Shown: positions 1-58,967 of the stretch, in pieces
How the letters are laid out: every line of letters begins with the position of its first letter
Position numbering within the stretch: position 1 is the first letter of the stretch
Assembly (NCBI RefSeq): GCF_042453785.1
Contig: NC_091667.1
Location: forward strand, 31,798,001 to 31,862,000
Source: Malus domestica
Taxonomy: Eukaryota; Streptophyta; Magnoliopsida; Rosales; Rosaceae
Direction of reading: 5' to 3'
DNA length: 64,000 nucleotides
Program-made: the position numbers and the translations under genes
Notes under the pieces: generated by a model
Databases searched by the model: none
Seen by the model: the letters and a program-made list of their open reading frames with translations, nothing else
What the model was told of the DNA's origin: nothing

Positions 1-110
1 ACATATTGAATCCAAAATGTTGACGCCCCATTCGCTGCATATAATGTACAGACGAGCGGCAGCTTCAACCAGTTCTGCCATATCCGGCTGGATGAGAGCA
101 GCTAAAGACA
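1..110 (-). other. Possible small reading frame at left edge, also present in the second block copy
   Basis: On the minus strand an ATG at 108-110 opens a frame of about 36 codons that runs off the left edge (begins MSLAALIQPDMAELVEAA). An AG-ended, acceptor-like site lies about ten bases upstream. The second block copy has the same start near 28494, but there the frame is interrupted by the hAT element and changes. I do not recognise the product. It could be the first coding part of a gene that continues left of the window, or chance. Confidence 0.25.
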
Positions 111-33723: not shown

Positions 33724-33827
33724 CTGTCAAATTAAAAAAAAAAAATATAATAACAACAAAAAATAATAATTAATAGGTCTTTTTCATCTGTTAGTTTTAA
33801 AAAAACTAGAAATTAAAACCAAAATCT

Positions 33828-34085
33828 TGTTGTGGTCTATTTTATCTGACAGAGGGACTAGGGCCGGCGGCAGAGAGAGAGAGGAGAGAGAGGTGTGTTT
33901 GTAGAATTGTAGGGGAATGTGTGTGTTGTTATCCCTCCTACATTGTGCCTTTATTTATAGTAGTAAAGGGAGAGAAGATATTCCTTCTTCTCCAAGTAAT
34001 ACAAGTTGTAATAGGAAAGGATAACTAGAATCAAATCTTATCTAGGATTTACACAATCATACTTAAACTAGGAATGTTTACAACA
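33828..34085 (-). repeat. 3' LTR of the young copia
   Basis: Begins tgttgtggtc and ends tttacaaca, with TG/CA ends. A minus-strand TATA box (ctataaataaagg) lies near 33950-33962. Confidence 0.95.
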
Positions 34086-38087: not shown

Positions 38088-38327
38088 ACCTAGAATTAAT
38101 TTGAATTGGTCACATGCATAAAAGTTTATAAAACAAGTATCAATTCAAAATAATTTCATTTATTCAAGGAAAAAACTTAATATCCAAAATAAATCGCCAA
38201 CTAATAATCCAAAACATAAAGGAAAATTGTTCAAAATCAACCAAAAACAAGGTGGGGTTCGGCCACTAGGTGGAATTCGGCCCCAATTGTCTTATTTTAA
38301 CTGAAAAATAAGTCTATGTCTAAGATT

Positions 38328-39308
38328 CTAATCTTCCATAGGAGTGGTATCCTCCTGAAAATCAGAAACCTCCATCTTTGTAATCTCCGGTTCGTCCACT
38401 TGCAGGAAGTTTGATTCAAACTTCGTACAACGAGAATGATATGCATCCACAACCTTCTTGGGAGTACGGCAAATACGGGACCAATGGTCCTTGGAACCAC
38501 AACGATAGCACATATCGTCATTCATTGTGGCAGGTGCTTTGCCCTTATTCTTGAAGTTCGGGGCCTTGGGAGTGAGGTTTGGGCGCTTCTGGGCTTTGTT
38601 TCCTCCCTTGGATGGGCCTTGGCTCTGTTGACCTTGGTGGGATGGCTTCTGGCCGCCCTTACCACGCCTCTTTTGGCGTTTTGGGTGCTGATTAGTGCTA
38701 TAATGTGCTTCAGGCACAGCAGTAGCCCCAGTAGGTCGAGCTTGATGATTTTTCATCAACAGCTGGTTCTGCTTTTCAGCAAGAAGTAAAACAGAGATCA
38801 AATCAGAGAACTTAGTGAACTTCTGAGCTCTATATTGTTGCTGCAGGACAATATTAGAAGCAGAGAAGGTCGAGTAGGTCTTCTCCAGGAGATCCTCTTC
38901 AGTCAAAGTTTCATTGCAAAACTTGAGAAGTGATCGGATTCGACAAACTTCAGAATTATATTCATTCACAGACTTAAAGTCTTGGAAGCGCAAGTGCTGC
39001 CAGTCGTGTCTTGCTTCAGGCAAGAATATGTCCTTTTGGTGATTGAAACGATCAGCCAAAGCGACCCATAATGCACGTGGATCCTCCTCAGCAAGGTACT
39101 CAGTTTGTAGAGCGTCATGGATATGTCTTCGGATGAAGATCATAGCAGTGGCTTTTTCAGCCTCGCCAACAGGTTTATCTGTTACTTCTTCAATAGCAGG
39201 ACGCAAGTTCTTTGCAGTGAGGTGGAGCTTCACATCTTGAACCCACTTGAGGTAGTTCCTTCCAGAAACCTCCAAAGCGGTGAAGTCGAGTTTGTTCAAA
39301 TTCGACAT
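38328..39308 (-). CDS. gag: Copia gag (capsid/nucleocapsid)
   Basis: A 326-residue frame (ATG at 39308, begins MSNLNKLDFTALEVSG). It has the copia capsid pattern YLKWVQDVKLHL ... ALWVALADRF, a basic Lys/Gln/Gly-rich stretch, and one zinc knuckle CYRCGSKDHWSRIC near residue 270. It ends with its own stop (PMED), so gag and pol are not one polyprotein. Confidence 0.93.
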   Translation of the reverse strand: MSNLNKLDFTALEVSGRNYLKWVQDVKLHLTAKNLRPAIEEVTDKPVGEAEKATAMIFIRRHIHDALQTEYLAEEDPRALWVALADRFNHQKDIFLPEARHDWQHLRFQDFKSVNEYNSEVCRIRSLLKFCNETLTEEDLLEKTYSTFSASNIVLQQQYRAQKFTKFSDLISVLLLAEKQNQLLMKNHQARPTGATAVPEAHYSTNQHPKRQKRRGKGGQKPSHQGQQSQGPSKGGNKAQKRPNLTPKAPNFKNKGKAPATMNDDMCYRCGSKDHWSRICRTPKKVVDAYHSRCTKFESNFLQVDEPEITKMEVSDFQEDTTPMED

Positions 39309-40264
39309 GTTCCTATCACAAAATGGATGAACAAGATGTGGTTAGTGTAATGGAGAAAAATCAATCCATTCACATAGGAGTAGAACATACAGGTTCTAAT
39401 AGACATGTATTGGTTTAATTTTGCATGAAAAACTTCGGGTTTTCATGGGTGATATATTTAAGTGAAAACTTCGGGTTTTCAAACAAGGCATGTGTATAAG
39501 AAACTTTGGGTTTCAAAGTAATTATGAACTTCAGGTTCATATATTCCTGCAGGCAAACACAAATATATATGCAAACAAATATGCAAAGAATATATGTAGA
39601 AATATTGTATAATGATAAGTGAATTAATTTATTTTTGGTCTTCGGGGCCAAATTAAAGTGTGGGTGAAAATATAAAAACCCATATTATTTAAAAAAAATT
39701 AAATAATAAAATCTCGGGGCCTAAAAATATAGGCCAAGAACCCTCGGGTGGGATTACAGGCCCACGGGGTGAGAAAAGGGGAATGGGCTGCTGTGTGCAG
39801 CCCTAAAATTTTTTTTTTCTCGGGCCGTTCCAGGCGAGCCCATAATTTTTTTTTTCTTTTCGGGCCGTTCCAGGCGAGCCCAGAAACTTTTTTTTTTTTT
39901 TTTTAATTTAGATGCATATATAATTCAATGAATCACATATTTACTTTGATGCATATGCAAATAATAGTTTCAATGCATGTACATATGTAAGATTCAATTC
40001 ATGGCAAATATCAAATTCACATAATTGTAGCAATTTTGATTATGAAGCATACACAATTTATGTAGAATCTAAAATACGTAAAACGTAAAGTTGGGTCATG
40101 CATCATGGTGAATGTTCATGCTATCAGGGCTTGCAAAATATCGAGTTAAAAGCCGTTGTTTGGAAAGAACCTGATTGCGTGATGATATGGATGAACTGGT
40201 TTGATGCAGAAAAAATCTCCAACGTCAGATTCCTAAGCGCAACGGTAGGAGCGTGCTGATAACG

Positions 40265-40522
40265 TGTTGTGGTCTATTTTATCTGACAGAGGGACTAGGG
40301 CCGGCGGCAGAGAGAGAGAGGAGAGAGAGGTGTGTTTGTAGAATTGTAGGGGAATGTGTGTGTTGTTATCCCTCCTACATTGTGCCTTTATTTATAGTAG
40401 TAAAGGGAGAGAAGATATTCCTTCTTCTCCAAGTAATACAAGTTGTAATAGGAAAGGATAACTAGAATCAAATCTTATCTAGGATTTACACAATCATACT
40501 TAAACTAGGAATGTTTACAACA
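40265..40522 (-). repeat. 5' LTR of the young copia
   Basis: 258 bp, same as the LTR at 33828-34085 in a base-by-base reading. It carries the promoter TATA box (minus strand ctataaataaagg near 40388-40400) for gag-pol transcription. Confidence 0.95.
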
Positions 40523-42485: not shown

Positions 42486-44689
42486 TCAAGTGTCACAGCC
42501 TGTCCCGAAATATTTTATTGATGTTGTGAAATGACGAAACTGCCTTTGAGCGTTTTTTGACATTTAAACTTTAGGGTTTGTTTTGGTAACCATGGTTGTG
42601 TTTAGGGTTAGGTGGAAGTGTGAGGACACACACATCACCCTTTCCCTTTCTTTCTCTTCTCTCCCGTGCACTCTCTCTCTCTCGGAAACACTCTCCCTCT
42701 CGGAAACACTCTCCCTCTCTTCCTTCTTTGTACGGACAACATCAAAACCCTCTCAAACCTTGTAGATCGAGGGTGTAAAGAACACCATTGGGTTCGTGAG
42801 GATCATACAAGTCAAAAGGTACCAGTTTCAGGTAAGGAAACCTTCGATTTCCCGTGAAAACCCTAACCCTCCGATTTTGTCACTGTTTATGCTCATGTAA
42901 AACCTTGTGTTTTAGGGGATTTTAAGCTCATAGGGAGCTTTAGGAGGTCCTAAGGAAGATCAGAGTGGTTTGTTGGAAGAATTTGGACGTCGAAATAGTG
43001 AGATCGACGAGTTGCAGGGTTTGGCCTGATTATCGAGGTTTTTTTCCAGCGAGTTGGAGGTCGAGGCATGTATGGTTTTGTTCGTCTTTGTGAGATCTTC
43101 AAATTGGTTCAAATTTCATTGAAAATGGTGCAAAAATGAAGAAGTTATAGGCATTAGAAATTTTTCCATAAACCGGTGACTCACCGGAGAAGAAAGGAGT
43201 TGACGGAATATACTAACGGCGTCATGTATCTTTAACAGATTCAGTTAGTTTTAACGGAATATTCCTGACGGCGTTAACTGACGCCGTCAGTGTGCCAAGC
43301 ACATGGGCGCACGTGGGGGCGCATCTGGCCGTGCCTTGGCCACGTGGGTGATCAGAAAATTATTCTAAAAATATGGGGATGTTTCTGAGGTTGTGTAGAT
43401 CATTTTGGTATATTCAAACACCCCGATTGAGCATTGTATGAGAAGTTGTTACCAAGTTTTGTGTTTGTGCTTTAAAAGTAACGTTTATATAGTTGTTTCG
43501 CATATAGGTGAGACCTATCCCGAGGACGAGCGAAGTCAGGGGCAACTCGGGGGTTACGACCCTTCCACATACCAGTGAGTATATATATATATTGAATATT
43601 TTCCTAGAAAAGCGATTTAAATGTGTGAAATCCCGTTTCTGGATTTCATTGTTATCACCTACATATTTGTATTATTGAGATTTTATATTATTTCTCGAGA
43701 ATTTATTTTAATTTGTTTGAATTTAAATTTAAATTAAATTAGTTATTAACGTTTGAAGTTTGAGGCATTTTAGAAATAAATAGAAAAATCTGAAATTTTC
43801 TTATGAAATCTGGTGTGCCACATGGGTGGCCCAGATTCAATGGAAAGGAAAATGGATGGTGGAGATGCAAAGGAAAGGATTTAAAAGAGAGTGGGCGCTG
43901 CCCAGTTAGGAGGGGGGAGAGAAAGAGGTGACCAATTGGGCGAAGAGGAAAGGAGAGTAAGGAGAGAAGAAGAGGAAGAGGGAACCGGCCGGGGTTTACT
44001 ATGGCCCATGACCCGACCCGGTTATATCTCCCAACTCCGGCCACCATGGACGGCTAGGATGGTGTCAAAATGATCCTTAGCTCGAGGCCAATCGATCTCT
44101 CTTCCATTTCTACACTTAAAACGACGAGGGGGAGTCCAATTTTGAGGAAATACCACGGTGGGTGCGTCGGGCTTATGTGGAAATCCATTAAATCTTGAAA
44201 CGTTTTCTTCCAATTACAACCACCCATAGCATCCTCATGAGGCCTAGAACAAAGCCCAGACAAGTTTGGGGGCGGCAGAGTTGTTTTCGAGTCGGATCGA
44301 ACACACCTAAAAACAAGGGTTCCGTACGGTTCGAGTGAAATTGGGGATTTTCCCGGCCAAATTGGACTTGGCCACAGGTATAAAAATTGCTATACTCATT
44401 GAAATCTTCATTTCTGTAAATTTTGATAATTTTTAAAAATAGTTGAATTTTTCCGGCAAGTCGGGGCGGCCGACGGCCACCCGTGGCGGCGAGTGCGGCG
44501 GTTTCCTGGCCAGTGGGCCGAAAATATCATTTTAAGTTCAATTAGATGTCTTGATTTCATAATTGATATCCTTATGATATGGTTTGATTGTTTGAACCTA
44601 ATTTCATTACGATACGTGGTTAGGTCAAAATATGATTCGACGATCCTACCGTTGGATCGTCACCAAACCTTAATGCGTGATAGAACATA

Positions 44690-44940
44690 ATATTTTTGGA
44701 TCATAGAAACTTACGGATCGAGAATCTGACGTACGGATCTTCCCTAATTGGATTTCTAAGTTTGTAAAATTAAATGTCGACCGCCACTTGAATTTTGAAA
44801 TTGGCGGAGATCCAACTGTCGGATCATGTTGAGATTTCAGTATGTTGTTATTTGAGCATAATGTGGACTTTGGAAAGTTTCGGATCGGAAATCCGAGGTG
44901 CGGATCTTCCGAATCAAATTACATAAGTTTGTGGACCCTA
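44690..44940. repeat. Diverged tandem repeat with cggatc motifs
   Basis: Two copies of the layout acttacggatcgagaatctg ... cggatcttcc (from about 44710) and gtttcggatcggaaatccga ... cggatcttcc (from about 44877), about 167 bp apart, inside the 5-kb element. Confidence 0.6.
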
Positions 44941-45435
44941 CTGTTGATCGAGAGTTGACTTTTGCTCAACATGTCATGAAACGTCCTAATTACTAAAATT
45001 AGTACTACAGGGGAACTAGGTGAAGTCTAGTGGGCATGCATTGATTAGAGAGTGACTTGAATATATGTGATATGATTATTACCTTAATTTCCTATTAGTA
45101 TCCTTTGTGAAGATGAATTGGTTTTATAAATGTGATTTCTATTGAAATGTGATTTTTATATATTTAGCCATAGGCCTATGATTATTAAACATGATTTGGC
45201 TTGGTACTGATGATGGTTGTGACATATGTGAGTTAAATTATCTTTTTAGTAATGTGAATGATGTGTATGATTATTTTCATGACAATGTGATCCTAGAATC
45301 CTATTAAAAGTATGTTGTAGCACTTATATGCTTGGGTGCCATATTAGTGGTGACCTTGAGAAGTTGATGGTGTAGGTGACTACGTTGTAACTCATAGGGT
45401 TGAGATGTGATGTGGATAAGTTGAGGTGTTGAAAT

Positions 45436-45799
45436 TACTACACCATGTAGTAGTTGTACATTGATGGTCCTGCTTGGTATATCCGCATTGGGGGACCATA
45501 CGCATTCTAGGAGTGATCATGCTTGGTATATCTGCATTGGGTGATCACTACCTACCTGATTATCTTGACCCTGCTTGGTTAATCCGCATTGGGGGGTCAC
45601 AAGTGGTCCTGCTTGGTTAACCCGCATTGGGGGACCATACTTTATATGGATCGCGCTTGGTTAAACCGCGTTGGGCGATCCTTATGGCCATGTATGCTTA
45701 GGAGTGATCATGCTTGGTATATCCGTATTGGGTGATCACTGCCTAGGATATTAAACTATGCATACGGTTTTGCTTGGTATATCCGCGTTGGGGGACCAT
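45436..45799 (+). repeat. Array of seven hairpin-forming repeats with co-varying arms
   Basis: The conserved core tgcttggtatatccgcattg lies between complementary arms that differ from unit to unit. Units: 45464-45499 arms ATGGTCC/GGACCAT; 45512-45549 AGTGATCA/TGATCACT; 45566-45599 TGACCC/GGGTCA; 45604-45637 TGGTCC/GGACCA; 45648-45681 GGATCGC/GCGATCC; 45703-45740 AGTGATCA/TGATCACT; 45766-45797 GGTTT/GGACC (two G:U). A further small hairpin, TACTAC/GTAGTA, sits at 45436-45452. The unmatched bases are compatible with G:U only on the plus strand. Confidence 0.85.
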
Positions 45800-45829
45800 A
45801 TGCATTCTAAAAGTAAGGAGGATTAGTTG

Positions 45830-46342
45830 TGTTGATGCACAAAATCAGCGAAGACTTTGGTACAACAGAAAGTGTCAGGTTTTGTGACCTTCGCTTGGTT
45901 GCTTCGGTCACTAGTGAGGATAAATACGTAAATAAATAGAGACAGAGAAGCAAACACAGGATGTACGTGGTTCACCCAGATTGGCTACGTCCACGGAGTA
46001 GAGGAGTTCTTATTAGTAGTGAAGGGCTTACACAAGTACAAAGGATCAAGCTCTCAATTTAGTGAGTTCTTGTGAATGATTTAACACAAAATGGCATTAG
46101 GCAATATTGTGGGGGAATGACCCCTATTTATAGAAAAACTTGTAGCTTTGTCACATTGACATGTGTCATGTTATGATTGGTTCTTGATGTTGACACGTGC
46201 TGCGCTCTGATTGGCTTCTAATCCTGACACGTGTCGAGTAGTGATTGGCCTCCTGGTCGGAGGGGAACTCTTCTGGGTCCTTGACAGTATAGCGTTGGCT
46301 GGTACTCGGTAGTTTCGGGATTGGTCAAGTATGGTACAAACA
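45830..46342 (-). repeat. 3' LTR of the Tat element
   Basis: Begins tgttgatgca and ends tacaaaca. By eye it differs from the other LTR at about six positions (three adjacent ones near the start, then near 46200, 46301 and 46305), roughly 1%. It has a minus-strand TATA box tataaata near 46125-46132. Confidence 0.93.
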
Positions 46343-48330
46343 GTGCTCCCCTAAGTTCCCGAGTGAGGGAAACTCCTCGGTTGGGGACTTGCAAGATCCA
46401 ATCCCTTGAGTAATCACGAAACTTCTAAGTACCGAAGTGTGGTCTGATCTTCATCTGCCCTTCTCTGGAAGTACCTTTCCTCCATCCGGGAATGGTGTAT
46501 TTAGCTGATGTTGACGCACAAGCTAATGTATCAATTTCACTTGAAGCTTAGTTGTAGTTTCGGGCTTAGTCAAGTGTGATACAAACCCTATAGTAGGAGT
46601 CCCCCAAGTCGCCGAGCTAGGAGATCTGCCGAAAGAGGTGACAGACAAGGTAAGCAGTCAAACTTCCAAGTAAGCAACCCAGGATCAGAGGTTTGACTTC
46701 GGCTTCCGGTTGATTGTTCTCATTCTCCTTGTCTCTCATTCAACTGCCAGGATAAGGAGAAGCAAATGGATAAGAGATGATATGAGATACTTTTGCTTTT
46801 GAAGAAGTAACTTTCCACAGGCTTATTCTTGAACTGTGCTGGAGGGTTTTCTGGTGCCCTTCAGAGTATAAGGCCAACTCAAAAATTTGAGGGTCAAAAC
46901 AAGTCCATCAAATCTAGAGTACGTTCGACCTTGATGATATGGGATACTTTTGCTGTTGACGGAATAATGAATGTGGTATGGAAAGGTGTCGTGCTGTAGT
47001 GATCTGTTTCAGCTCACCGTTTGAACCTTCTGCTTCAATCTTTTGCATGGCAGAAGTGGTGTGCAACCTTTGCATTTAAATGGTCCTTCAGAACATTCCT
47101 TCATAGTGACTCATCCACGCTTGGCAGCTTCAGTGTAAAGAGCCAATATCTGATCAACTGTCATGAGGTATTTGCCGGTGGAATTCGTGACCTTGACAGC
47201 AGTTGAGGATGAGTACTCGAGAGCAATGCTAAGTAAGCAACCAGGCAAAGGCTCCAGGCAGTCAGTTCCAAATTGGAGGTTTGATTTCAGGTTCCGACTG
47301 ACTGCTCTCTTTCTCCTTGTCCTGCAGGTGTGGACAAGGACAAAGACAAAGACAGGGAGAAAGCATGATATGGGATACTCTTGCTTTCGATCCTGATGAT
47401 ATGAGATACTCTTGTTCTTGGTGTGGCTTATTTGCTGAGGTATTATCGGGGGGAAATAAAGCTGAGTATTTCGAGAGGTTATGTTGAGGGTGCCTTTTCG
47501 AATGCGAGAAAGGGTTGAGCATTTTTGCAGGTTTGCCTGTCCGTTGAGGAGGGAGGTCAATGTATATAGGGATTTCCCAATAACAAGTAGTAATGCTATT
47601 CCTTTACCCTTCTTGGTCACAGCAATGTAGTGGGAGCTGCCAGCTTCACGTGTTTTAATTTTGTCAGAGCACTTTGAAAAAGTGGTATGTGGTATCTGGA
47701 AAGCTGATGTTACGTGTGAAGATTACAGACAAGCTTTATCTAAGGAAATCTGGCTCTCGAAGTTCTGAGAGTTGTGCCTCTTCGGTTTTCGAACAAGCAA
47801 TCCCGTCGAGGATCTGACTCTCGAGATTCGGAAAGCGGTGCTACTCCGGTTTTTTAGAAAGTAATTATGTTGGGAGTCTTTTCTTGAATGTGAGTAAAGG
47901 TTGGACGTTCTTGCCAACCTGTCTTGCCGCAAAACACGGAGGTCGACACACATAGGGACTTTCCAGTTGTCAAGCAGTGGTGCTGTTCCTTTACCCTTAT
48001 GGGTAATAGTAGGGTAGCTGGAACTTCGAAATTCTCGTGCCTAAACTTTGTCAGAGATCTTTGACAAAGTTATATGTGGTACCCGATGAGTTGATGGTGC
48101 ATATGGAGAGCGGTGATTGAACAGTAAGATTCACGTGCTTTCTACTTCACCAGAAATCTTCGACAGATTGCCCGTAATTTCTGCAAAGCTGAGTGTGCAT
48201 GTGACAGGTGCTGACGAGGCTGAAAAAGCAGGTGCTTCTTTGATTTCTGAGATCGGCCCTCGTGGTCTCTGAGCAGCCCAGCTTTTGAGAAAGCAAACGC
48301 CTCTTCGATTTCTGAAGCTCCGTCGAGTGC

Positions 48331-48342
48331 AGATTTTTATAG
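48331..48342 (+). promoter_or_regulatory. TATA-like box upstream of the antisense ORF
   Basis: The sequence tttttatagagg lies about 115 bases before the ATG at 48455, in the plus orientation. Together with the polyadenylation signal at 49197 it frames a possible independent transcript. This is inferred from sequence only. Confidence 0.4.
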
Positions 48343-48454
48343 AGGCTGGCATTAAGTTCCACAGCACACTTGAATCTCTACCAGTAGAAGCTCATTTCTT
48401 GCACTTCTAAGATCTTGATTTGTCTGACCTCTTCCCTCTTCAACACATTTGAAA

Positions 48455-49129
48455 ATGTCTGGACCCTCCGACCGTCGTTTTGACTTGAACCTTGGAGAAG
48501 AGACAGCCACGCCTTCTCCAGACAACATATGGCGCCCATCATTCATATCCCCTACCGGTCCTCTTACCGTTGGGGATTCTGTGATGAAGAATGATATGAC
48601 CGCTGCAGTGGTGGCCAGGAACCTTCTCACTCCCAAAGATAACATACTACTTTCCAAACGGTCTGATGAGTTGGCTGTTAAGGACTCTTTGGCCCTTAGT
48701 GTTCAGTGTGCAGGTTCTGTGTCTAATATGGCCCAACGCCTATTTGCTAGAACCCGCCAAGTTGAATCATTGGCTGCTGAAGTGATGAGTCTCAAACAGG
48801 AGATTAGAGGGCTCAAGCATGAGAATAAGCAGTTGCACCGGCTCGCCCATGACTATGCTACAAACATGAAGAGGAAGCTTGACCAGATGAAGGAATCTGA
48901 TGGTAAGGTTTTACTTGATCATCAGCGGTTTGTGGGTTTGTTCCAAAGGCATTTATTGCCTTCGTCCTCTGGGGCTGTACCTGGTAATGAAGCTTCAAAT
49001 GATGAACCTCCAATGCCTCCTCCTTCTGGGGTTTTGTCAAGTACTGAGGCTCCGGATAACCACCCTCCGGTGCTTTCTCTTTCTGGGGCTCTACCGACTG
49101 CTGAGACTTCCCCTAAGCAACCTTTGTGA
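48455..49129 (+). CDS. Antisense ORF of the Tat element, 224 residues, coiled coil, function unknown
   Basis: The frame runs opposite to gag-pol, between the pol stop and the 3' LTR. The first ATG is at 48455 (MSGPSDRRFDLNLGEE). The N-terminal part has a FDLNL motif, reminiscent of EAR-type DLNxL repression motifs. The middle (about residues 95-150: RQVESLAAEVMSLKQEIRG, LKHENKQLHRLAH) forms clear coiled-coil heptads with a basic patch (MKRKLDQMK). The tail is made of two or three Pro/Ser-rich repeats (PPSGVLSSTEAP / LSLSGALPTAE). No known enzymatic domain is visible. Tat/Ogre-type elements are known to carry additional ORFs outside gag-pol, sometimes antisense, with unknown function. An intact frame in a young element suggests that it is maintained. 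Confidence 0.75.
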   Translation: MSGPSDRRFDLNLGEETATPSPDNIWRPSFISPTGPLTVGDSVMKNDMTAAVVARNLLTPKDNILLSKRSDELAVKDSLALSVQCAGSVSNMAQRLFARTRQVESLAAEVMSLKQEIRGLKHENKQLHRLAHDYATNMKRKLDQMKESDGKVLLDHQRFVGLFQRHLLPSSSGAVPGNEASNDEPPMPPPSGVLSSTEAPDNHPPVLSLSGALPTAETSPKQPL

Positions 49130-49196
49130 AGGCTCCCTTTTGTTTGTTTATTTTGACTCATGTATATGTACATATTTGTGGCTTATCGAAAATATT

Positions 49197-49202
49197 AATA
49201 AA
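49197..49202 (+). terminator. AATAAA polyadenylation signal after the antisense ORF
   Basis: A canonical AATAAA 68 bases after the antisense ORF stop, in an AT-rich stretch. It is consistent with a separately ended plus-strand transcript. Confidence 0.45.
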
Positions 49203-49744
49203 TAAGCTTTGCTTCATTTCAACATATTGTGTTAAATACACCAAAGCCTTCTTCATAAAGTTCTTTGAATTTTTGCTTTTGTTGAAACCTGTATTGTTGA
49301 AGCTTTGTGAGTGAAGCATGTAGTTTGAGGTAGTGTTCCCTTAATTTCTCGAGTGAGGAAAACTTCTCGGTTGGAGACTTGAAAAATCCAAGTCACTGAG
49401 TGGTTGTGAGACTGCCGAGTATCAAGGTGCAGTAGCATATGGTGGGAGTCCCCCAAGTCTTCAGGCGAAGAGAGTTGCCGAATGAGGTGTCTCGCGTGTT
49501 ACTAATTTGTCAAAGTAACGAATTCTTGTTTCGATGTCACACATTCGTATATGCTTTATCTAAAAATATTTCCAACTTTTGTGTGTTTGATGCTGCATGC
49601 TATTGACTAGACAAGATCAAGTGCAATTAGTAGCTTTTCTCTCTTTTTCATCTTTTCTTTGGTGGAATTGCTTTTCGTTTCCACTAATCAGCCTGAGTGG
49701 ATGCAAGATAACACCTTTCTCTATAGCTCAGATTGCAAAGTCGT

Positions 49745-50500
49745 CTTCATGAAAGTTTTTCCTTATCTTGTGAACTACAATATATCCAAATTTGAGATCC
49801 ATCGGAGTAGTACAACTTCAGAAATTCAAGTATGATGAGTAACTGTTCATCAATGTTCTGTTAATCCGTCAGACTTGTTGTGAGCTTCGAAACTCCATTT
49901 TCTCTTGTTCAGATCAACATACTTTCTTCATCGAAGTTGTTCCTCAGCTTGTGAACTACAACATATCCAAATTTGAGATCCCTCGGAGCAGTATAACTCC
50001 AGAAATCCAGGTATGATGAATGACTGGTTATTATTTTTCTGTCAACCCGTCAGATTTGTTGTGAGCTTCGAAACTCCATTTTCTCTTGTTCAGATCGGTA
50101 TGCTTTCTTCATTGAAGTTGTTCCTCAGCTCGTGAACTACAACATATCCAAATTTGAGATCCCTCGGAGCAGTATAACTCCAGAAATCCAGGTATGATGA
50201 ATGACTGGTTATTATTTTTCTGTCAACCCGTCAGATTTGTTGTGAGCTTCGAAACTCCATTTTCTATTGTTCAGATCGGCATGCTTTCTTCATTGAAGTT
50301 GTTCCTCATCGTCTCTTTCATAACATATCAAAAATTCAGAATGAACTAATGGTTAAATATTTCCAGATCTTTGAAACATCACAGCAGCTTCGAAATCTGC
50401 AAGAATCCGACTGTCATGTTTGGAACTTCAACACTTTAATTTCCGTCGCTCAAACAGAAATGGTTCCTTCTTGAAAGTTGTTCATATGCTCAAGAACTAT
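49745..50500. repeat. About 180-bp tandem repeats in the Tat 3' region
   Basis: Four units (the last partial) begin near 49745, 49917, 50097 and 50277. Shared blocks are gaagttgttcctcag, aactacaacatatccaaat, tttgagatccctcgga and gtgagcttcgaaactccat. The second and third units are nearly identical, so amplification is recent. Such 3' region repeats are known in Tat/Ogre elements and can seed satellites. Confidence 0.85.
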
Positions 50501-50523
50501 AGGGTGTCCAAAATTCAGCTCCA

Positions 50524-50745
50524 TTGGAGAAGAGCAGAGGTTGCAGAAATTTGATAGATGAAAGGAGGCGGAAGAGGGAGAGAGAGAAAAAGTCTCTTGG
50601 GTTGGATTTCTATTTTGGGGCAGATTCCAATTTTTGTAGCACCTTCATTATTGATGAATTGCTTGTACTTTTGTCCATTATGAAACTTGGGACTTTGGCT
50701 TGTTGTTGGATCTATTATAATATGTTTGGGAACATATATAAGTGA
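50524..50745 (+). other. Short open frame of 73 codons, not supported as a gene
   Basis: It begins MEKSRGCRNLIDERRRKR in the Tat 3' region. No family is recognised and no repeat unit shares it. Listed because it follows the tandem repeats and has a basic N-terminus, but it is probably chance. Confidence 0.15.
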
Positions 50746-50849
50746 ATAAATAAGAAGGAAAATTTTGGGCCCTTGTGGGTGTAAAACAAAAAATGTTTAT
50801 GTTTACCCAAGTGGTTTTGTGAACAAAATTTGTTTATTTGGAGCAAGGT

Positions 50850-51240
50850 TTTGTGTTGAAGCTTTGTAGGTGAAGCTTTGTAGATGAAGCTTTCGAGGTG
50901 AAGCTTTGATGGTGAAGCTTTGTAGATGAAGCTTTCTGGGTGAAGCTTTGATGGTGAAGCTTTGTAGATGAAGCTTTCGAGGTGAAGCTTTGATGGTGAA
51001 GCTTTGTAGATGAAGCTTTCTGGGTGAAGCTTTGATGGTGAAGCTTTGTAGATGAAAGTATGTAGAGGGAGCTTTCTAGGTGAAGATTTTTTAGGTGAAG
51101 CTTTGTAGGTGAAGCTTTTTTAAGTGAAGCTTTTCGGGTGAAGTTTTTGTTGGGTGAAGCTTTGTGGGTGAAGCTTTTTAGGTGAAGCTTTGTGGGTGAA
51201 GCTTTGGAGGTGAAGCTTTTCGGGTGAAGCTTTTTGGATG
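50850..51240. repeat. Short tandem repeat around gtgaagctttgtagat
   Basis: More than twenty copies of a 15-17 bp unit built on gaagcttt, with longer alternating units near 50890-51050. They are followed by a poly-T run. Confidence 0.92.
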
Positions 51241-51245
51241 AAGCT

Positions 51246-51246
<1 letters not shown>

Positions 51247-51282
<36 letters not shown>
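51247..51282. repeat. Poly-T run of 36
   Basis: An uninterrupted T run directly after the gaagcttt repeats. On the element's coding strand this is a poly-A run 3' of pol. Confidence 0.95.
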
Positions 51283-51283
<1 letters not shown>

Positions 51284-51494
51284 GCGCTTGACACGGTCTT
51301 CATTTGCTTGTTTTGTAGTGACTGTGGAAGACGGATTGCTTTCTGATTGAGAAGGGTTCCGGCATCGCTTGCTATGAATGTAAAAGAGTGAGGGCTGAGT
51401 TGGCTAAATTACCTCTTTATTGAATTCATTGCCAAATGGCCTTCATTACATAGGATGCCGAACGGCTATAGCTCAACACTTGTACATCGTGAGT

Positions 51495-54400
51495 CTATTT
51501 GTAGTAGTACTTCAAGTGATCAGCGTTCCATGGATGGCCAAGGGTCTTGCCATCGGAGCTTCTAAGTGTGTAAGAGCCAGGGCGACTGATGCCAATGACT
51601 TCATACGGTCCATCCCAGTTTGGACTAAGTGTGCCTTCACTCGGGACTCTGTCGCAGAGTAATCTTTTCTTTAAGACCCAGTCTCCTATTTTGAAAGAAC
51701 GAGGCTTGACCCTAGAGTCATAATAGTTGGAGATGCGCTGCTTGTAGGCGACATTCCTCAAGTGAGCTTGGTTTCTGTGTTCCTCGACTAAATCCAAGTT
51801 GAGGGTGAGTTGTTTGTCATTTTCACTTTGAATGTAGTTCTGGACTCGGAATGTTGCTTGCTCGAGCTCAACAGGGACAACCGCCTCTGTGCCAAAGGCA
51901 AGTGAGAATGGAGTTTCTCCTGTTGAAGTCCGATATGAAGTGCGATATGACCAAAGAACTTGGGGTACAAATTCTGGCCAACAGCCTTTAGCTTTGTCCA
52001 AGCTGGTTTTCAAAGTGCGCTTGATTATTTTGTTGATGGCCTCAACTTGTCCATTAGACTGGGGATGAGCTGGAGAGGCAAAGCATAAGTTGATGTTGAA
52101 CTTAGAGCAGAACAACCTGAACTTCTTGTTGTCAAACTGTCGCCCATTGTCAGTGACTATCGCATTGGGAATGCCGAATCTACAAAGGATGTTCTTCCAC
52201 ACGAAGTCTTCTATCTTTGCCTCAGTAATGGTTGCCAAGGGTTCTACTTCGGCCCACTTTGTGAAGTAGTCCACTGCAACGACTGCGTAACAGACTTTGC
52301 CCTTCCCTGCCGGCATTGGGCCGATCAAATCAAGTCCCCACTGGGCGAAGGGCCAAGGGCTGATCATAGGAGTAAGAGGCTCTGGAGGGGAATGAGGAAT
52401 AGTTGCATATCGTTGACATTTGTCACATGAGCGGGATACTTTGATGGCATCCTGGTGGAGTGTTGGCCAGTAATATCCTTGGCGAAAAGTCTTGTGTGCT
52501 AGGGACCGAGATCCAGCATGATCTCCACAGACTCCCTCATGTATTTCCCGAAGGACGATTTCCGCCTCGGCAGGCGTAAGACACCTTAAGTATGGCAGGC
52601 TAAAACCTCGCTTATAGAGTTGATCATTGATGATCAGGTAGCGGGTAGACTTGTATCGAATTTGCTTAGCCTGGACTTTATCATTTGGGAGGGTGCCATG
52701 AGCAAGGAAATTATAGATCGGGGTGATCCAACTATCCCCCTGTTGTAAGTTGCATACTTCTGCGGCCATGGTGCTTGGTGTTGCCAACAGTTCGACATGA
52801 ATTTTTCTTCCAATCTTGTCTTCCACAGCTGAGGCGAGGCGAGCCAGGGCGTCTGCATGACTGTTTGCCGCTCGAGGAACTTGGGTGATCTGGTAGTGGA
52901 AGTGCTTGAGTAAAAGTTGTGTTTGCGCAAGATATGCTGCCATGGAGCTGTCCTTAGCATCAAAGTTGTTGGTAACCTGGTTGACCACTAATTGGGAGTC
53001 ACTGAAAATATCAATTTGTTTAACCCCGAGGTGTTTGGCCAAACGTAATCCTGCTAGAAGGGCTTCATACTCGGCCTCATTATTTGATGCCTTGAATTTG
53101 AAACGAAGAGCATACTCCATTGCTACTTTGTCGGGTGTAGTCAAGACTAGTCCCGCTCCACAGCCCTGTTGGTTGGATGAGCCATCAACATACAGACTCC
53201 ATGCTGGGGTTGTTGGTTCTATCTTCTGAGCTTCCGGGGGTAATGAAGCCACTGTTTCAGGTGTAGAAGCAATGTCAACCGGATATGTGAAGTCGGCAAT
53301 GAAGTCTGCCACTGCTTGGCCCTTCTCAGCTGGCTTTGGTTGGTAGGAGATGTCAAACTCACCCAACGCTATTGCCCATTTGATCATTCGCCCTGAAGTG
53401 TCAGGACTTTGGAGTATCTGTCGAAGAGGATAATTGGTAAGCACGATGATGGAGTGCGCTTGGAAGTAAGGGCGGAGTTTTCGAGCAGACATGACCAATG
53501 CCAGAGCCAATTTCTCAATGTTAGAGTACCGTGTCTCCGCATCTTGTAAGGCTTTGCTAGCGTAGTAGACAGGTCGCTCAATATTCCCATCCTTTCGAAT
53601 GAGAACGGAACTTACGGCTGAAGCTGATACCGATAGGTAGATAATGAGAATGTCTCCTACCTCGGGCTTGGTGAGTAGAGGGGCTTTACTCATGTACTCC
53701 TTGAGGTTTTTGAATGCCTCGGCACATTCATCAGTCCATGTAATGTACTTCCTACTTCCCTTAAGTGCTTTAAAAAAGGGAGCACATTTGTCTGTGGCCT
53801 TAGAAATGAACCTGGTTAAGGCTGCCACCTTGCCAGTAAGGCTCTGGATGTCCTTTGAAGTTACCGGTTCCTTCATGTCGAGGATTGCTTTGATCTTCTC
53901 GGGATTAGCTTCAATGCCTCGTTGGCTAATCATGAAACCTAAGAATTTGCCAGAGCCTACGCCGAAGGCACATTTGTTGGGGTTTAACCTCATTCGATAC
54001 CTCTTCAAAATAGTGAAAGTTTCAGATAGGTTGGTGATGTGTTGGTCAGCATGTTTGCTCTTGACTAACATATCATCAACGTAAACTTCCATGCTCTTCC
54101 CAATCTGCTCGGCGAACATTGAGTTGACTAGTCTCTGATAAGTCGCTCCTGCATTCTTTAGGCCGAAAGGCATGACTTTATAGCAGTATAGTCCTCTGTC
54201 GGTAGTGAAGGCTGTGTGTTCTTGATCCGAAGGGTTCATGAGGATTTGGTTGTATCCTGAGTAAGCATCCATGAAGCTCAGGAGTTCACACCCGGCCGTA
54301 GAGTCTATAAGTCTGTCAATAAGAGGAAGAGGGAAGCTATCTTTCGGACACCCTTTGTTTAGGTCGGTGTAGTCAACACACATTCTCCACAAGACCTTTT

Positions 54401-57400
54401 GAAGCGAAAGACTTTCTTTGGTCGGATTTTTCCTAACAAGGACCACATTTGCTACCCATGTCGGGTAATTGACTTCGCGGACAAAGCCTATGCCTTTGAG
54501 TTTTTCAACTTCTGCTTTCATTGCCTCGTATCGTTCAGCGTCATAAGATCTTCGCTTCTGTCTCACCGGCTTGATCTTGGGGTCAATACTCAAACGATGA
54601 CAGATGACATCGGGAGAGATGCCTGGCATGTCCTCGTATGACCAGGCGAAGACTTCAGTGTTCTCTTTCAAAAAAGATATCAATGCTAACCGAAGGGGTG
54701 GTGACAATGTGGTGCCAATCTTCACCATGTGATCTGGATAATCTCTTGAGATAGGTACCTTCTCCAACTCTTCAGCAGGTTGGGCTTGCTGGGTGAAAGA
54801 GTCATCTCGAGGATCATCGGGTTGATTGTTGCTATCAGGAAGATCCAAGTTCGCTTCATCTAGGCTGGTCTTTGTGACTTGGTCATGTACAGACAGGGTT
54901 TCCTTGGGTCCGGGCAAGTGTTGTTGCTTAACTGAAGTGTTGTAACATGATCGTGCACTAAGCTGATCTCCTCTGATGTAGCCGTTGCCATGGGGGGTTG
55001 GAAATTTCATCAACAGCATATGCGTGGATACCATAGCCTTGAGATCATTGATGCCTGTGCGCCCAAAGATGACATTGTATGCCGTTGGGCAGTCAACCAC
55101 TAGGAAGTTAGTGGTAATGGTAGCCGTGTAAGGGCCTGTACCAATAGTAAAGGGTAAATGTATGCTCCCTAAGGGTTGCACGATATCACCGGAGAAGCTT
55201 ATCAGAGGAGAAATCGAGCGATCGAGCAAGTGTTCAGCTACACTGAGTGCCCTGAAAGCTTCGGCAAACATGATATTGACCGAAGCCCCTGTGTCTACGA
55301 GGATTCGTCGAACATCAAAGTTGGCTATGTGAGCCTCCACGATCAATGGGTCGTTATGAGGGTAGATGATGCCTCTTTCTTCCTCAGGGTAGAAACATAT
55401 CGGATCCCAGTTAGGCTTTTGATACTTCCCTCCCCTGATGTCTTCCACGTGAAACACTTGGTGACCAGGCCTCAGAATTCGTTCACTGTTTTTCATGGCC
55501 CTATTGGAAGATTCAGATATGGGTGTGCCGCCGCTTATGGAATATATGACATTCACCTGGCGTTGGTTACGGTTATCCCTTTGAGGGTGAAGGAGGAATT
55601 GATCAATTTTTCCTTCTCGTGCCAAAGCTTCAATACGATCACGGAGGATGATACATTTCTCGCTATCATGGCCGTTATGCTCATGGTAGCAACAAAACAT
55701 GCCCGCGTTATTCGGGGGCGTGTAATCTGGGTGCCTCGGCTTTGGCTTTGGTATCAGGTGAGCTATGCTGGGGTAAATGGCCGCGCATGTGGCATTCAAG
55801 GGCGTGTATGTCTCATACCTTGGGGTAGGGGGTATCTTGACGCGGGTTTGACCCACTGCATTGACTGCCTGGGGGCGAGCGTTATTGTGGCGATACCCTT
55901 GGTTATCGGGATAGTGTCCCTTACTCTTTTTACTGAAATGAGAGTGGTGAGGATGGAAATCCTTCCTCTTGCCTTGAAATTGATATGTCTGTTGATTCGG
56001 CGAAGCATTATGCAAGGCATGGGGAGGTGCCACTGCTGTTTGGAAAGTCGAGGTCTTCTCATTTAGGTGAGTCTGGCTTCCACCTCCCACTTGTTGATAA
56101 AGGATGGTTGTAGGGGGTTTCTCCTGATATGTCTTTGCCTCGGCGGAGGCATGGTTATAAGCCTGCGCCATCACCTCAGAGTAAGTCTTCCAAGTATTGG
56201 CATTGATCATGTATTTAAAGAAACAATCACGTAGGCCTGCCGTGAAGGCTTTGAGGGCAGTCTTGTCGTCTGCCTCGGCACACCGGGAGTATTCATGGCT
56301 GAAGCGGCCAGCATACATACGTAATGACTCGTCTGGCTTCTGGCGGATAGTGTACAGGTCATCTGCAGAGTGCAAGCGATCGGTTTGGAAAATGTGTTGG
56401 GAAACAAATAGTTTCCTCAATTCCTCAAATGAGTCTACCGTCTCAGGTGTAAGACGACAATACCAATTTAGAGCTCCGCCAGAGAGGGTGGAGGGGAAGA
56501 GAAGACATCGCTCTTCGTCGGTGTGCATCCGGTATGCCATGGTGGACTCAAAGAGGTTAAGGTGCTCAATCGGGTCCTCTTTTCCAGTATAAAGTTGCAA
56601 GCCAAGCTTTTGCTTTGTCTTTGCTTGAAGGGGGGTGTTGAGGATCCTCCTTGTAAGAGGGCCAGGCCTGGGTTGGTTCCAGTCAGGTATTTCAGCCTGA
56701 CGTTCAGCCTTCAACTTGTTTACTTCCTCAAGAAGTTGTAGGACAAGGGGGTCCTGAGCGGAGTTATGTGCCACTGGAGCTTTCTTTCGTAAATCTCCAT
56801 CTTCTCTTGGAATTAGGAAGGTTTGATCAAGGGCATGTGATTTTTCCCTGGACTCGCTGTACTGGCTTCCAGGGTATGTCTGTCGGAACACCTCTGAGTC
56901 CCCTGTACCCTCATGTCTCTCTAGGACTTGTTGCCCCTTCCCCAAATTGGTGGCCGGCTTGGGCCGTGGCAGGGGACCGAGTCTCTCAGAAATCCTTGGG
57001 TCATTAATCTTTGAGCTTATATGGATGGAATTCTCTCGACGTTGCTTCAGGAAATCCCGACAATAGCGAAAGACAGCTTTCGATCCTTCTGCCCCTTCAG
57101 CAAAGAGGTGTCTCCCTCCACTTCTCATGGTTCGGGTTGAAGCAACTGGGTTAAGAGAAGCCTCATGTTGATTATCAAGTCGAGGGGTAATCTGTTCCCT
57201 ATCAGGGATATCTATGTCGAATGCATGTGACCCTCCATGTTGGAGGGCACCCAGTTGATGGTTGACTTCCACGGGGGCAACAAGCTCGCGTGTCTGAGCT
57301 TGCCTAGCTTCGTGGAGTGTCTCGAAGAGCTTCTCATATTGCTCCTGGAGGACCTCATTCCTCATTGCTATCTTGTTGTTCTGAGCTTCCAACTCATCGA

Positions 57401-57503
57401 CTTTAGCTTGAAGAAGAACTCGTTTTCCTTCCTTCTTTCGTTGTTTCGCACTATGTGCAAGGGGGGTGTCATTCTGTGTGCTGTGGCTTCCTTCGCTTCC
57501 CAT
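51495..57503 (-). CDS. gag-pol: Tat gag-pol polyprotein, uninterrupted
   Basis: 2002 residues from the ATG at 57503 (MGSEGSHSTQND); the frame is open further upstream into the LTR, but no Tat-like sequence lies there. Order: coiled-coil N-terminus (QAKVDELEAQNNKIA), gag core (HLNLFESTMAYRM ... LNWYCRLTP near 56450-56570), CCHC-like CCYHEHNGHDSEKC (near 55680), protease VDTGASVNIMF (near 55280), RT with FMDAYSGYNQI and YVDDMLVKS (near 54080), RNase H (YYASKALQDAETRYSNIEK), a second archaeal-type RNase H (WSLYVDGSSNQQGCGAG near 53190), and integrase with an HHCC-type zinc region (CDKCQRYA) and core motifs LDLIGPMP, VTDNGRQFD and HPQSNGQVEAIN. No stop or frameshift. The second RNase H is the mark of the Tat lineage. 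Confidence 0.95.
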   Translation of the reverse strand: MGSEGSHSTQNDTPLAHSAKQRKKEGKRVLLQAKVDELEAQNNKIAMRNEVLQEQYEKLFETLHEARQAQTRELVAPVEVNHQLGALQHGGSHAFDIDIPDREQITPRLDNQHEASLNPVASTRTMRSGGRHLFAEGAEGSKAVFRYCRDFLKQRRENSIHISSKINDPRISERLGPLPRPKPATNLGKGQQVLERHEGTGDSEVFRQTYPGSQYSESREKSHALDQTFLIPREDGDLRKKAPVAHNSAQDPLVLQLLEEVNKLKAERQAEIPDWNQPRPGPLTRRILNTPLQAKTKQKLGLQLYTGKEDPIEHLNLFESTMAYRMHTDEERCLLFPSTLSGGALNWYCRLTPETVDSFEELRKLFVSQHIFQTDRLHSADDLYTIRQKPDESLRMYAGRFSHEYSRCAEADDKTALKAFTAGLRDCFFKYMINANTWKTYSEVMAQAYNHASAEAKTYQEKPPTTILYQQVGGGSQTHLNEKTSTFQTAVAPPHALHNASPNQQTYQFQGKRKDFHPHHSHFSKKSKGHYPDNQGYRHNNARPQAVNAVGQTRVKIPPTPRYETYTPLNATCAAIYPSIAHLIPKPKPRHPDYTPPNNAGMFCCYHEHNGHDSEKCIILRDRIEALAREGKIDQFLLHPQRDNRNQRQVNVIYSISGGTPISESSNRAMKNSERILRPGHQVFHVEDIRGGKYQKPNWDPICFYPEEERGIIYPHNDPLIVEAHIANFDVRRILVDTGASVNIMFAEAFRALSVAEHLLDRSISPLISFSGDIVQPLGSIHLPFTIGTGPYTATITTNFLVVDCPTAYNVIFGRTGINDLKAMVSTHMLLMKFPTPHGNGYIRGDQLSARSCYNTSVKQQHLPGPKETLSVHDQVTKTSLDEANLDLPDSNNQPDDPRDDSFTQQAQPAEELEKVPISRDYPDHMVKIGTTLSPPLRLALISFLKENTEVFAWSYEDMPGISPDVICHRLSIDPKIKPVRQKRRSYDAERYEAMKAEVEKLKGIGFVREVNYPTWVANVVLVRKNPTKESLSLQKVLWRMCVDYTDLNKGCPKDSFPLPLIDRLIDSTAGCELLSFMDAYSGYNQILMNPSDQEHTAFTTDRGLYCYKVMPFGLKNAGATYQRLVNSMFAEQIGKSMEVYVDDMLVKSKHADQHITNLSETFTILKRYRMRLNPNKCAFGVGSGKFLGFMISQRGIEANPEKIKAILDMKEPVTSKDIQSLTGKVAALTRFISKATDKCAPFFKALKGSRKYITWTDECAEAFKNLKEYMSKAPLLTKPEVGDILIIYLSVSASAVSSVLIRKDGNIERPVYYASKALQDAETRYSNIEKLALALVMSARKLRPYFQAHSIIVLTNYPLRQILQSPDTSGRMIKWAIALGEFDISYQPKPAEKGQAVADFIADFTYPVDIASTPETVASLPPEAQKIEPTTPAWSLYVDGSSNQQGCGAGLVLTTPDKVAMEYALRFKFKASNNEAEYEALLAGLRLAKHLGVKQIDIFSDSQLVVNQVTNNFDAKDSSMAAYLAQTQLLLKHFHYQITQVPRAANSHADALARLASAVEDKIGRKIHVELLATPSTMAAEVCNLQQGDSWITPIYNFLAHGTLPNDKVQAKQIRYKSTRYLIINDQLYKRGFSLPYLRCLTPAEAEIVLREIHEGVCGDHAGSRSLAHKTFRQGYYWPTLHQDAIKVSRSCDKCQRYATIPHSPPEPLTPMISPWPFAQWGLDLIGPMPAGKGKVCYAVVAVDYFTKWAEVEPLATITEAKIEDFVWKNILCRFGIPNAIVTDNGRQFDNKKFRLFCSKFNINLCFASPAHPQSNGQVEAINKIIKRTLKTSLDKAKGCWPEFVPQVLWSYRTSYRTSTGETPFSLAFGTEAVVPVELEQATFRVQNYIQSENDKQLTLNLDLVEEHRNQAHLRNVAYKQRISNYYDSRVKPRSFKIGDWVLKKRLLCDRVPSEGTLSPNWDGPYEVIGISRPGSYTLRSSDGKTLGHPWNADHLKYYYK

Positions 57504-57594
57504 GTTGGAGAGGGATGCCTGGTCAAAAGAAAGTGTACGAATGATAGAAACCAGCTTGACACAGCTGAAGAGAGTAGGAATAAGTGTCGTTTCC

Positions 57595-57610
57595 CACAGA
57601 CGGCGCCAAA
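57595..57610 (-). other. Primer binding site of the Tat element
   Basis: Next to the 5' LTR the minus strand reads tt then tggcgccgtctgtggg, a TGGCGCC-type primer site that pairs with the 3' end of a host tRNA. The exact tRNA was not determined. Confidence 0.7.
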
Positions 57611-58123
57611 TGTTGATTATCAAAATCAGCGAAGACTTTGGTACAACAGAAAGTGTCAGGTTTTGTGACCTTCGCTTGGTTGCTTCGGTCACTAGTGAGG
57701 ATAAATACGTAAATAAATAGAGACAGAGAAGCAAACACAGGATGTACGTGGTTCACCCAGATTGGCTACGTCCACGGAGTAGAGGAGTTCTTATTAGTAG
57801 TGAAGGGCTTACACAAGTACAAAGGATCAAGCTCTCAATTTAGTGAGTTCTTGTGAATGATTTAACACAAAATGGCATTAGGCAATATTGTGGGGGAATG
57901 ACCCCTATTTATAGAAAAACTTGTAGCTTTGTCACATTGACATGTGTCATGTTATGATTGGTTCTTGATGTTGACACGTGATGCGCTCTGATTGGCTTCT
58001 AATCCTGACACGTGTCGAGTAGTGATTGGCCTCCTGGTCGGAGGGGAACTCTTCTGGGTCCTTGACAGTATAGCGTTGGCCGGTGCTCGGTAGTTTCGGG
58101 ATTGGTCAAGTATGGTACAAACA
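57611..58123 (-). repeat. 5' LTR of the Tat element
   Basis: 513 bp, begins tgttgattat and ends tacaaaca. It carries the promoter TATA box (minus strand tataaata, 57906-57913). Confidence 0.93.
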
Positions 58124-58164
58124 AGTTGTACTTAGTACATTTGATGGGCAATCATATTTTAGTT

Positions 58165-58261
58165 GGTTCCGTTGAGTGGTCCGGAATCCTTTTTGGTGTC
58201 TTGGTTCCGTTGAGAGGTCCGGAACCCGATGCTGATGGATTTCGTTGAGGGGTCCGAAATT
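58165..58261 (+). repeat. Second hairpin family, three units with co-varying arms
   Basis: The core ttgag(t/a/g)ggtc is flanked by GGTTCCG/CGGAATC at 58165-58188 (one G:U), GGTTCCG/CGGAACC at 58203-58226 (perfect) and GATTTCG/CGAAATT at 58238-58261 (one G:U). The arms of unit three changed on both sides together. It lies in the right-hand part of the split 5-kb element. Confidence 0.75.
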
Positions 58262-58967
58262 GCATCATTTGATTCATTTAAGACAGCTTCAGCAATGTAG
58301 ACTTATGTCGAATTGTGTCGCTCTAACCCGGCATTCCGATGAATTGTATGTGTTATTGATGATATGGTGATTGGCATTATTGATTGATGTGATAATTGGA
58401 TGGTAATGGAATGCATATGTGAGGATGAATGACGTTATGAGTAGAGATTATTATTGTGCTTTGTTAAATGTTCCTTAAGGTGCTACATAATTGAATTGTG
58501 GTATTATGTTGAGACCTAGTGGTCTATGTGACGAATGTTCGATAGTAGTGAAATGTGAACTACGAATGACTTGATCCCTGTTGAGGGTACGTAGGTAGTC
58601 TAACGAGGAGGTTAGATGCAGTCATAAAATACACAAAAATTACAACGAAATTCGAATATTGAATTATGCTTTGTAAATATTTCGGGCGGGATATGTGAGA
58701 TATACGGGTTTTTAATGACGTCACGTGCTGATCTTGGACGTATGTCGGGATCAGGGCGTGACAAAATGAGTTTTATGAAATGAAATGGCATGCCAATTAT
58801 ATTTATATTAAGAATGTGCATATGTGATTATATATGTTGTGATTCGATGCTATGGGCGCTCAGGTAAGTTTCAAGTAAGTTTATGTGTTGAGTTTAAGGT
58901 GTGGAAAAATGATGATTGTTGAGATGTGTTGAGAGCTCATTAACCTGCACCCGGGTGTTAGTGCTCC

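Follow-up and report, generated by a model that had tools for sequence, protein, structure and literature searches.

An array of hairpins with a common loop and covarying stems in the long terminal repeat of an apple retrotransposon family

A family of long terminal repeats (LTRs) in apple carries an array of hairpins in which one loop sequence recurs between stems that differ from unit to unit. In the 64,000 nt of Malus domestica DNA analysed here (the window), seven such units at 45464-45799 have a 22-nt loop in common and arms that pair over 5-8 bp (Table 1), their cores starting at 45472, 45521, 45573, 45611, 45655, 45712 and 45772. The loop pattern occurs in the window in these seven known units only, and shuffled windows gave a mean of 0.03 matches (maximum 1 in 100 shuffles). 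The observation of a covarying hairpin array is confirmed, and the structure is well supported by the matching of the arms, though not by phylogeny-aware statistics. We lean towards reading the array as a repeated structured RNA element on the sense strand, situated in the LTR of a non-autonomous LTR retrotransposon, and consider selection on a sense RNA hairpin probable.

All seven units and their common core were found where a first reading of the sequence (the earlier note) had placed them, and the several arm families that it distinguished became about eight classes once other copies were added. Its description of the imperfect pairs held in part. The outer pair of unit 4 and two pairs of unit 7 are indeed G.U on the plus strand, but they are not the only departures from exact complementarity, as three further mismatches that are not G.U appear when every stem in the window is read to 7 bp: T/C in unit 3, T/T in unit 5 and C/A in unit 7. 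In the predicted fold of the plus strand, the outer stem forms in all seven units, at -9.5 to -15.4 kcal/mol. The Rfam 15 covariance models gave no match with E up to 1 on either strand of 44000-60500, and similarity to phage records gave none either, as plant DNA would lead one to expect. Two readings of the loop itself were dropped: a copy of the primer-binding site, which has TGGTAT in common with the loop (8 of 12 letters by eye), and a CCAAT box, which is missing from loops ending in GATGG.

Table 1. Features of the host LTR, its two hairpin arrays and the nested element (positions in the window)
Feature	Positions	Strand	Remarks
Target-site duplication AAATG, left, host LTR	43619..43623	.	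precedes TGTGAAATCCC; repeated at 58764-58768
Left part (2,206 bp) of solo LTR, with array	43624..45829	+	begins TGTGAAATCCC...; alignment to L010; last 5 bases double as left duplication of nested element
Hairpin at LTR start	43626..43648	+	TGAAATCC / GGATTTCA, 7-nt loop
Hairpin unit 1	45464..45499	+	class a, ATGGTCC/GGACCAT
Hairpin unit 2	45512..45549	+	class c, AGTGATCA/TGATCACT
Hairpin unit 3	45566..45599	+	class d, TGACCC/GGGTCA
Hairpin unit 4	45603..45638	+	class a, GTGGTCC/GGACCAT, outer pair G.U
Hairpin unit 5	45648..45681	+	class e, GGATCGC/GCGATCC
Hairpin unit 6	45703..45740	+	class c, AGTGATCA/TGATCACT
Hairpin unit 7	45764..45799	+	class a/b, GGTTT/GGACC, two G.U pairs; C/A mismatch further out
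Nested younger Ty3/gypsy-type LTR retrotransposon	45830..58123	-	splits host LTR; gag, RT, RNase H-like and integrase domains
Right part (635 bp) of host LTR	58129..58763	+	ends ...GGGCGTGACA; alignment
Second array, 3 units	58165..58261	+	loop TTGAG-GGTC; perfect unit at 58203-58226
Target-site duplication AAATG, right	58764..58768	.	same 5 bases as left

The array in the window is one copy of a large and old family. With up to three mismatches allowed, the loop pattern is found in the genome (651 Mb in 19 contigs) 1020 times in forward and 989 times in reverse orientation, whereas its reversed form gives 3 and 1. When L010 is aligned with the window and with L001, L013, L016, L019, L022 and L025, the ends prove constant (TGTGAAATCCC... 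and ...GGGGCGTGACA) and enclose a repeat of 3.3-4.0 kb, although L016, L019 and L022 finish in ...TA rather than ...CA. Clear 5-bp target duplications flank six of seven copies (L010 TATTT, L013 GACTA, L016 AAAAT, L019 GCAAT, L022 GGGCT and the window AAATG), and none is clear in L025. Together with the TG...CA ends and the paired LTRs found around a primer-binding site and a polypurine tract, these duplications identify the repeat as the LTR of a retrotransposon, in agreement with the earlier proposal of a transposon-derived sequence; the array lies inside it, about 1.35-2.0 kb from its start. The copy in the window is a solo LTR, 43624 to 58763, split by the younger Ty3/gypsy insertion. This nested element (12.3 kb) has 513-bp LTRs that are 98.8% identical and a target duplication of its own, AGTTG, at 45825-45829 and 58124-58128.

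Most copies of the family appear to be solo LTRs. In six 30-kb stretches around the array, no directly oriented partner LTR is present. A primer site directly downstream is absent from 12 further LTR ends (20 fetched, 8 without a recognisable end); weak primer-site-like matches lie inside the LTR end of L091 and 464 nt past that of L105. Genome-wide, there are 598 LTR right ends, and the junction of an LTR end with a primer site of the tRNA-Met type occurs 10 times exactly and 32 times with up to three mismatches, so that about one right end in twenty has the primer site after it. The family does not account for all 10 exact junctions, because L108 and L110 match each other's LTRs and not the others of the eight fetched. 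For all LTR elements together, one study gives a ratio of solo to intact elements of 11.3-11.5 in GDDH13 and Gala (PMC11197308). The flanks of the L022 LTR match the nearby L021:3429-5988, where they are continuous without an LTR, and this has the appearance of an empty site within duplicated sequence.

Complete copies of the element exist as well, and the idea that the solo repeats are themselves complete miniature elements was dropped when a copy with two LTRs was found. In this copy (C5:31.66 Mb), the end of an array LTR is followed by the primer site TGGTATCAGAGC, 377 nt, the polypurine tract AAGGGGGGAAAGA and a further LTR. Between the two LTRs identity is 90% over 1,520 columns, and a hand count gives 17 units for the second array. 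The start of a second LTR was found at four of nine junction loci (L106-L113 and L116), namely L109, L111, L113 and L116, at a distance from the primer site of 377, 378 (L113), 714 (L116) and 1321 nt (L111). No LTR start lies within 1.5 kb at L106, L107, L108 and L110, and L112 has a poor match only. Upstream of the primer site, the array is present in L109 and L111 (coverage upstream was 1.5 kb at the other six of L106-L113, with no array in it at L113, and none at L116), and the array of L085 lies, by its coordinates, about 1.2-1.5 kb before a junction. Since the array lies upstream of the primer site in complete copies, it is part of the LTR and stands on the element's sense strand; the element is non-autonomous in the copies read. 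None of the four copies read to the start of the second LTR contains gag-pol between the LTRs, and the longest stop-to-stop frames in the 1.5 kb past the junction have 74 codons in L109, 112 in L113 (running into the LTR) and fewer than 60 in L111. Longer or autonomous relatives were not found and may exist. The tRNA-Met-type primer site, together with an NFEDEIF reading beside the polypurine tract, is reminiscent of Tekay-type (Del; Ty3/gypsy) elements. In one complete copy the arrays of the two LTRs are unlike (17 units at L115:488-1536 and 10 at L109:110-668, a partial first LTR), so that the arrays may have been altered in length during transit or once inserted.

For a comparison of the stems, 491 ungapped units were read in 69 stretches and their arms sorted into classes a/b, c, d, e, f, g and h. 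These 69 loci were drawn from the first 100 places of the loop-pattern search and hence represent the best-conserved loops rather than a random sample; the table of units takes ungapped 20-nt cores only, with loop-arm indel units missed or seemingly unpaired (chiefly in classes d and h), and contains a few chance matches, one of them in the row of the window. Substitution counts in the loop were left unused, as the search pattern biases them. Among the copies read, an LTR holds 4 to 17 hairpins, and stretches with at least three units have between 3 and 13, their number and order differing by locus: in one subfamily the order is a-c-d-a-e-c-g-h, in the other c alternates with a, b and f. The hairpin is closed by a U.G pair, the change of which to C-G in class e favours a structured RNA; against it stands a C/A mismatch that class e has in 13 loci (TGGATCG/TAATCCT), like the one in unit 7 of the window.

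Variation of this kind in unit number and order would also be left by ordinary hypervariable tandem repeats, that is, by a duplicated TGATCA-like palindromic seed whose copies drifted and were reordered through unequal exchange, with matched arms going back to a few chance events. The arm of class c (TGATCA) is self-complementary, so that class c alone would pair without any covariation, and even arms taken from two different classes pair at 5.2 of 7 positions. Units of the same class recur inside one array, and the argument of the earlier note that tandem duplication would copy the arms unchanged therefore does not dispose of duplication. Units with non-pairing arms, which the same note had held to tell against its reading, do exist in other copies: six strict chimeras, in which the 5' and 3' arms come from different classes, occur in loci with at least three units. 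Stems are broken in these single copies because exchange within the common loop makes chimeras, but if such exchange had shaped the arrays it should have broken more stems than these six. The chimeric units lie in L045, L061, L074, L075, L084 and L032 and comprise c/b and c/a twice each and c/f and b/c once each.

Comparisons with shuffled, slid and permuted arms support the claim, made at first from the window, that stems covary between units. Over the 491 units, a mean of 6.18 of 7 positions pair, as against 5.21 with the 3' arms shuffled (maximum 5.30 in 200 shuffles), swapped arms still pairing this well because the arm classes resemble one another. Among 15 distinct units (of 16 aligned), 94.2% of stem cells are paired, a value that none of 500 shuffles reached (77.6%), and only 28-53% pair when the partner is slid by 1-3 columns; the covariation score is 0.590, compared with 0.272 shuffled and 0.035-0.194 slid. 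A larger alignment of 72 distinct rows, taken from the best 150 of 443 model matches and fitted to the structure beforehand, is paired at 97.6% as against 85.4% (0 of 500 shuffles), with a score of 0.426 against 0.204 shuffled and 0.018-0.100 slid. Change on both sides is seen in 7 of 8 pairs of the 15 units, where shuffles, both alignments together, give 2.9-3.3, and two-sided changes are present at all seven stem positions. Permuting the arm pairs of the seven classes gives 5040 orders, of which the true one and a single other pair this well. At one aligned position, which follows a unit c, one subfamily has class d (TTGACCC/GGGTCAT) and the other class f (ACAGTCC/GGACTGT); four paired positions differ between them, and all four are compensated. 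That a single other permutation equals the true assignment of arms, and that two-sided change so exceeds the shuffled value, weighs against matched arms as a few chance events in a tandem repeat, an origin we regard as very improbable.

A test modelled on R-scape, the analysis that the earlier note had named as able to refute its reading, was run on 443 distinct units against a tree-based null, and no pair was significant. Five stem pairs rank 2, 3, 9, 19 and 23 of 903 (E = 2.6 to 55) and the other two stem positions stand at 301 and 700; we consider the test low in power because the 46 columns tested also supplied the tree. Constraint likewise went undetected inside a single subfamily (33 loci): shared-variant sites number 20 of 84 in the arms and 20 of 84 in the spacers, and in the loops, with 26 of 132, they are not significantly rarer than in the spacers (p = 0.50). 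Both of these results count against the structured-RNA reading and fit the tandem-repeat history.

Matched arms could also be produced by copying, if a template switch within the hairpin, during reverse transcription or repair, rewrote one arm as the complement of the other. Such a switch would account for matched arms and perfect stems without any function, and the hairpins of both arrays of the LTR (the second is described below) are plausible substrates for it. Pair-restoring changes are, however, rare in single copies, where 5 cells have a two-sided change that restores a Watson-Crick pair and 289 changes are one-sided, although the switch could still act during replication only. Copying further predicts no preference for G.U, which in fact exceeds A.C, and it leaves the conservation of the loop unexplained. 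We consider this mechanism unlikely; if it did operate, template switching in retrotransposons would have left a clear natural record in the arrays.

Among the non-Watson-Crick cells, read on the element's sense strand, 299 are G.U and 123 A.C, a count that includes variants inherited by many copies. By locus, G.U is in excess in 55 of the 69, A.C in 5, and 9 are tied. If the arms are exchanged by reverse complement, which converts G.U to A.C, the native form is the more stable in 197 units, the less stable in 115 and equal in 179; it is better in 46 and worse in 22 of the 69 loci (Wilcoxon p = 0.0028), a result that is no independent evidence because the loci have common ancestry. Variants present in at least four loci, leaving out 56 or 61 units that fitted no class, consist of 12 G.U, 6 A.C, 2 other mismatches and 1 Watson-Crick pair, and the rarer ones of 15 G.U, 21 A.C, 41 other mismatches and 4 Watson-Crick pairs. 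Between shared and rare variants, G.U against A.C amounts to a trend only (p = 0.15). The value for G.U against all mismatches (p = 0.0013) is not counted as support, since the other mismatches arise by transversion and transitions that recur can pass for shared variants. Because both kinds should build up alike in dead copies, the excess of G.U among shared variants is what selection in an active lineage would leave, and the predominance of G.U over A.C on the sense strand makes a sense RNA the best reading. The structured plus-strand RNA proposed at the outset thus gains the G.U bias in its favour but finds no significant pair in the tree-based test. The stability of single units on the plus strand (469 of 491 are more stable there, some of them cut short at the left) was set aside as support, as a strand rich in G and T is expected to fold more stably without selection, and the fold z-score is no better on the plus strand (-2.45) than on the minus strand (-3.00).

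These counts also bear on a role of the array as DNA, with the 22-bp core bound in duplex by a transcription or chromatin factor or with the inverted repeats extruded as cruciforms. Promoters and enhancers reside in LTRs, and a conserved core repeated 4-17 times has the typical look of a site cluster. However, a duplex site needs no matching arms, the sequence of which moreover varies by class, and a cruciform would use both strands and so predicts no bias between G.U and A.C, contrary to the distribution over the 69 loci. DNA sites are in our view distinctly unlikely.

Further evidence for the reading as a structured sense RNA comes from the right part of the LTR, where there is a second array of the same design, which the chance history of a single array does not predict. 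Its loop is conserved and has 10 or 13 nt (TTGAGTGGTC, TTGAGTGATGGTC). The stems in the window are GGTTCCG/CGGAATC (one G.U), GGTTCCG/CGGAACC and GATTTCG/CGAAATT (one G.U); among the other stems of this array are GGATTCCG/CGGAATCC and CGATTCCG/CGGAATCG. Related LTRs (L010, L016, L107) have up to about 10 units, often at a spacing of 40 nt. In 88 candidates from 20 sources, a count in which some evident chance matches are kept, 6.69 of 8 positions pair as against 6.28 after shuffling (maximum 6.61 in 500 shuffles). Two-sided variation is clearest at positions 6 and 8, and the effect is smaller than in the first array.

In an active element, selection would have kept the stem so that the hairpin presents its loop as a putative binding site on the element RNA, and many hairpins per LTR would provide avidity. 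The putative user would be a helper-element protein, Gag (nucleocapsid) or another, by which the RNA is packaged or exported; such a helper protein is the most likely user, because the copies read have no room for gag and pol. Packaging in particular is a tentative possibility, to which RNA export or the binding of a host factor are alternatives. Taking both arrays together, each with its own conserved loop and compensatory stems, the LTR might even be a multivalent RNA handle that recruits helper Gag or a host RNA-binding factor. We hold this to be rather unlikely, but, if true, it would account for the roughly 600 LTRs left by an element that lacks its own proteins. To our knowledge, the way in which such plant LTR elements are chosen for packaging is largely open. 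A short RNA motif that occurs up to 17 times per LTR and in about 2,000 natural copies in one genome would make this question testable, and the stem changes that survive would be a built-in readout of the hairpin motif.

The array has partial counterparts among known systems. If transcribed, it would resemble the structured RNAs that serve retroviruses and LTR retrotransposons in packaging and dimerisation or as leaders (Psi, SL1-SL4, R-region stem-loops), which are cis-acting stem-loops in LTR-derived RNA; for long R regions one paper ties residual conservation to stem-loops (PMC3601003). The dispersed packaging signals of single-stranded RNA viruses (STNV, MS2) place many stem-loops with a common loop motif along one RNA (PMC3662417). 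The apple array, known here from DNA, differs from the former by its 4-17 near-identical loops per LTR on differing stems and from the latter by its tandem arrangement in a non-coding LTR and by its 22-nt loop. Elements of the Tat lineage have hypervariable tandem repeats in the 3' UTR (Macas et al., 2009, as cited in PMC7004042), and these are likewise tandem, variable in number and in a non-coding part of a plant LTR retrotransposon; they lie between pol and the 3' LTR, however, whereas the apple array lies inside the LTR and has covarying inverted arms. The word "hairpin" is absent from the main text of PMC7004042 as consulted. LARD, TRIM and Cassandra elements combine LTRs, a primer site and a polypurine tract with an interior too short for gag-pol; the apple element differs in having LTRs of 3.3-4 kb around an interior of 0.38-1.3 kb. 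Hairpin arrays are unmentioned for these groups in the consulted parts of PMC7215508 and PMC4717578. Three of the core sequences do not occur in the text of open-access papers, and by title and beginning of abstract none of the open-access papers found on LTR stem-loop arrays with covariation, on hairpins of LARDs or long LTRs, or on stem-loop arrays of apple retrotransposons describes the array.

The surroundings of the host LTR contain further repeats. The nested element has an open frame of 2085 codons from stop to stop and a 14-bp minisatellite at 50857-51245. Just outside the LTR, at 59040-59240, a repeated hairpin-like motif, GTATAGACCACT..GTGGGTTCGACTCG, was seen twice by eye and, on that basis, may belong to a different LTR family. 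Identical 258-bp direct repeats at 33828-34085 and 40265-40522, 6.4 kb apart, enclose long minus-strand frames at 34548-38144 and 38328-39341, and this pair looks like a very young LTR retrotransposon. Finally, a region of 5-6 kb is duplicated at 41-6669 and 28425-33787, with pieces up to 91% identical; judged by eye it is possibly a duplicated leucine-rich-repeat gene, and each duplicate contains an array of 210-bp repeats (3478-4553 and 30908-31780).
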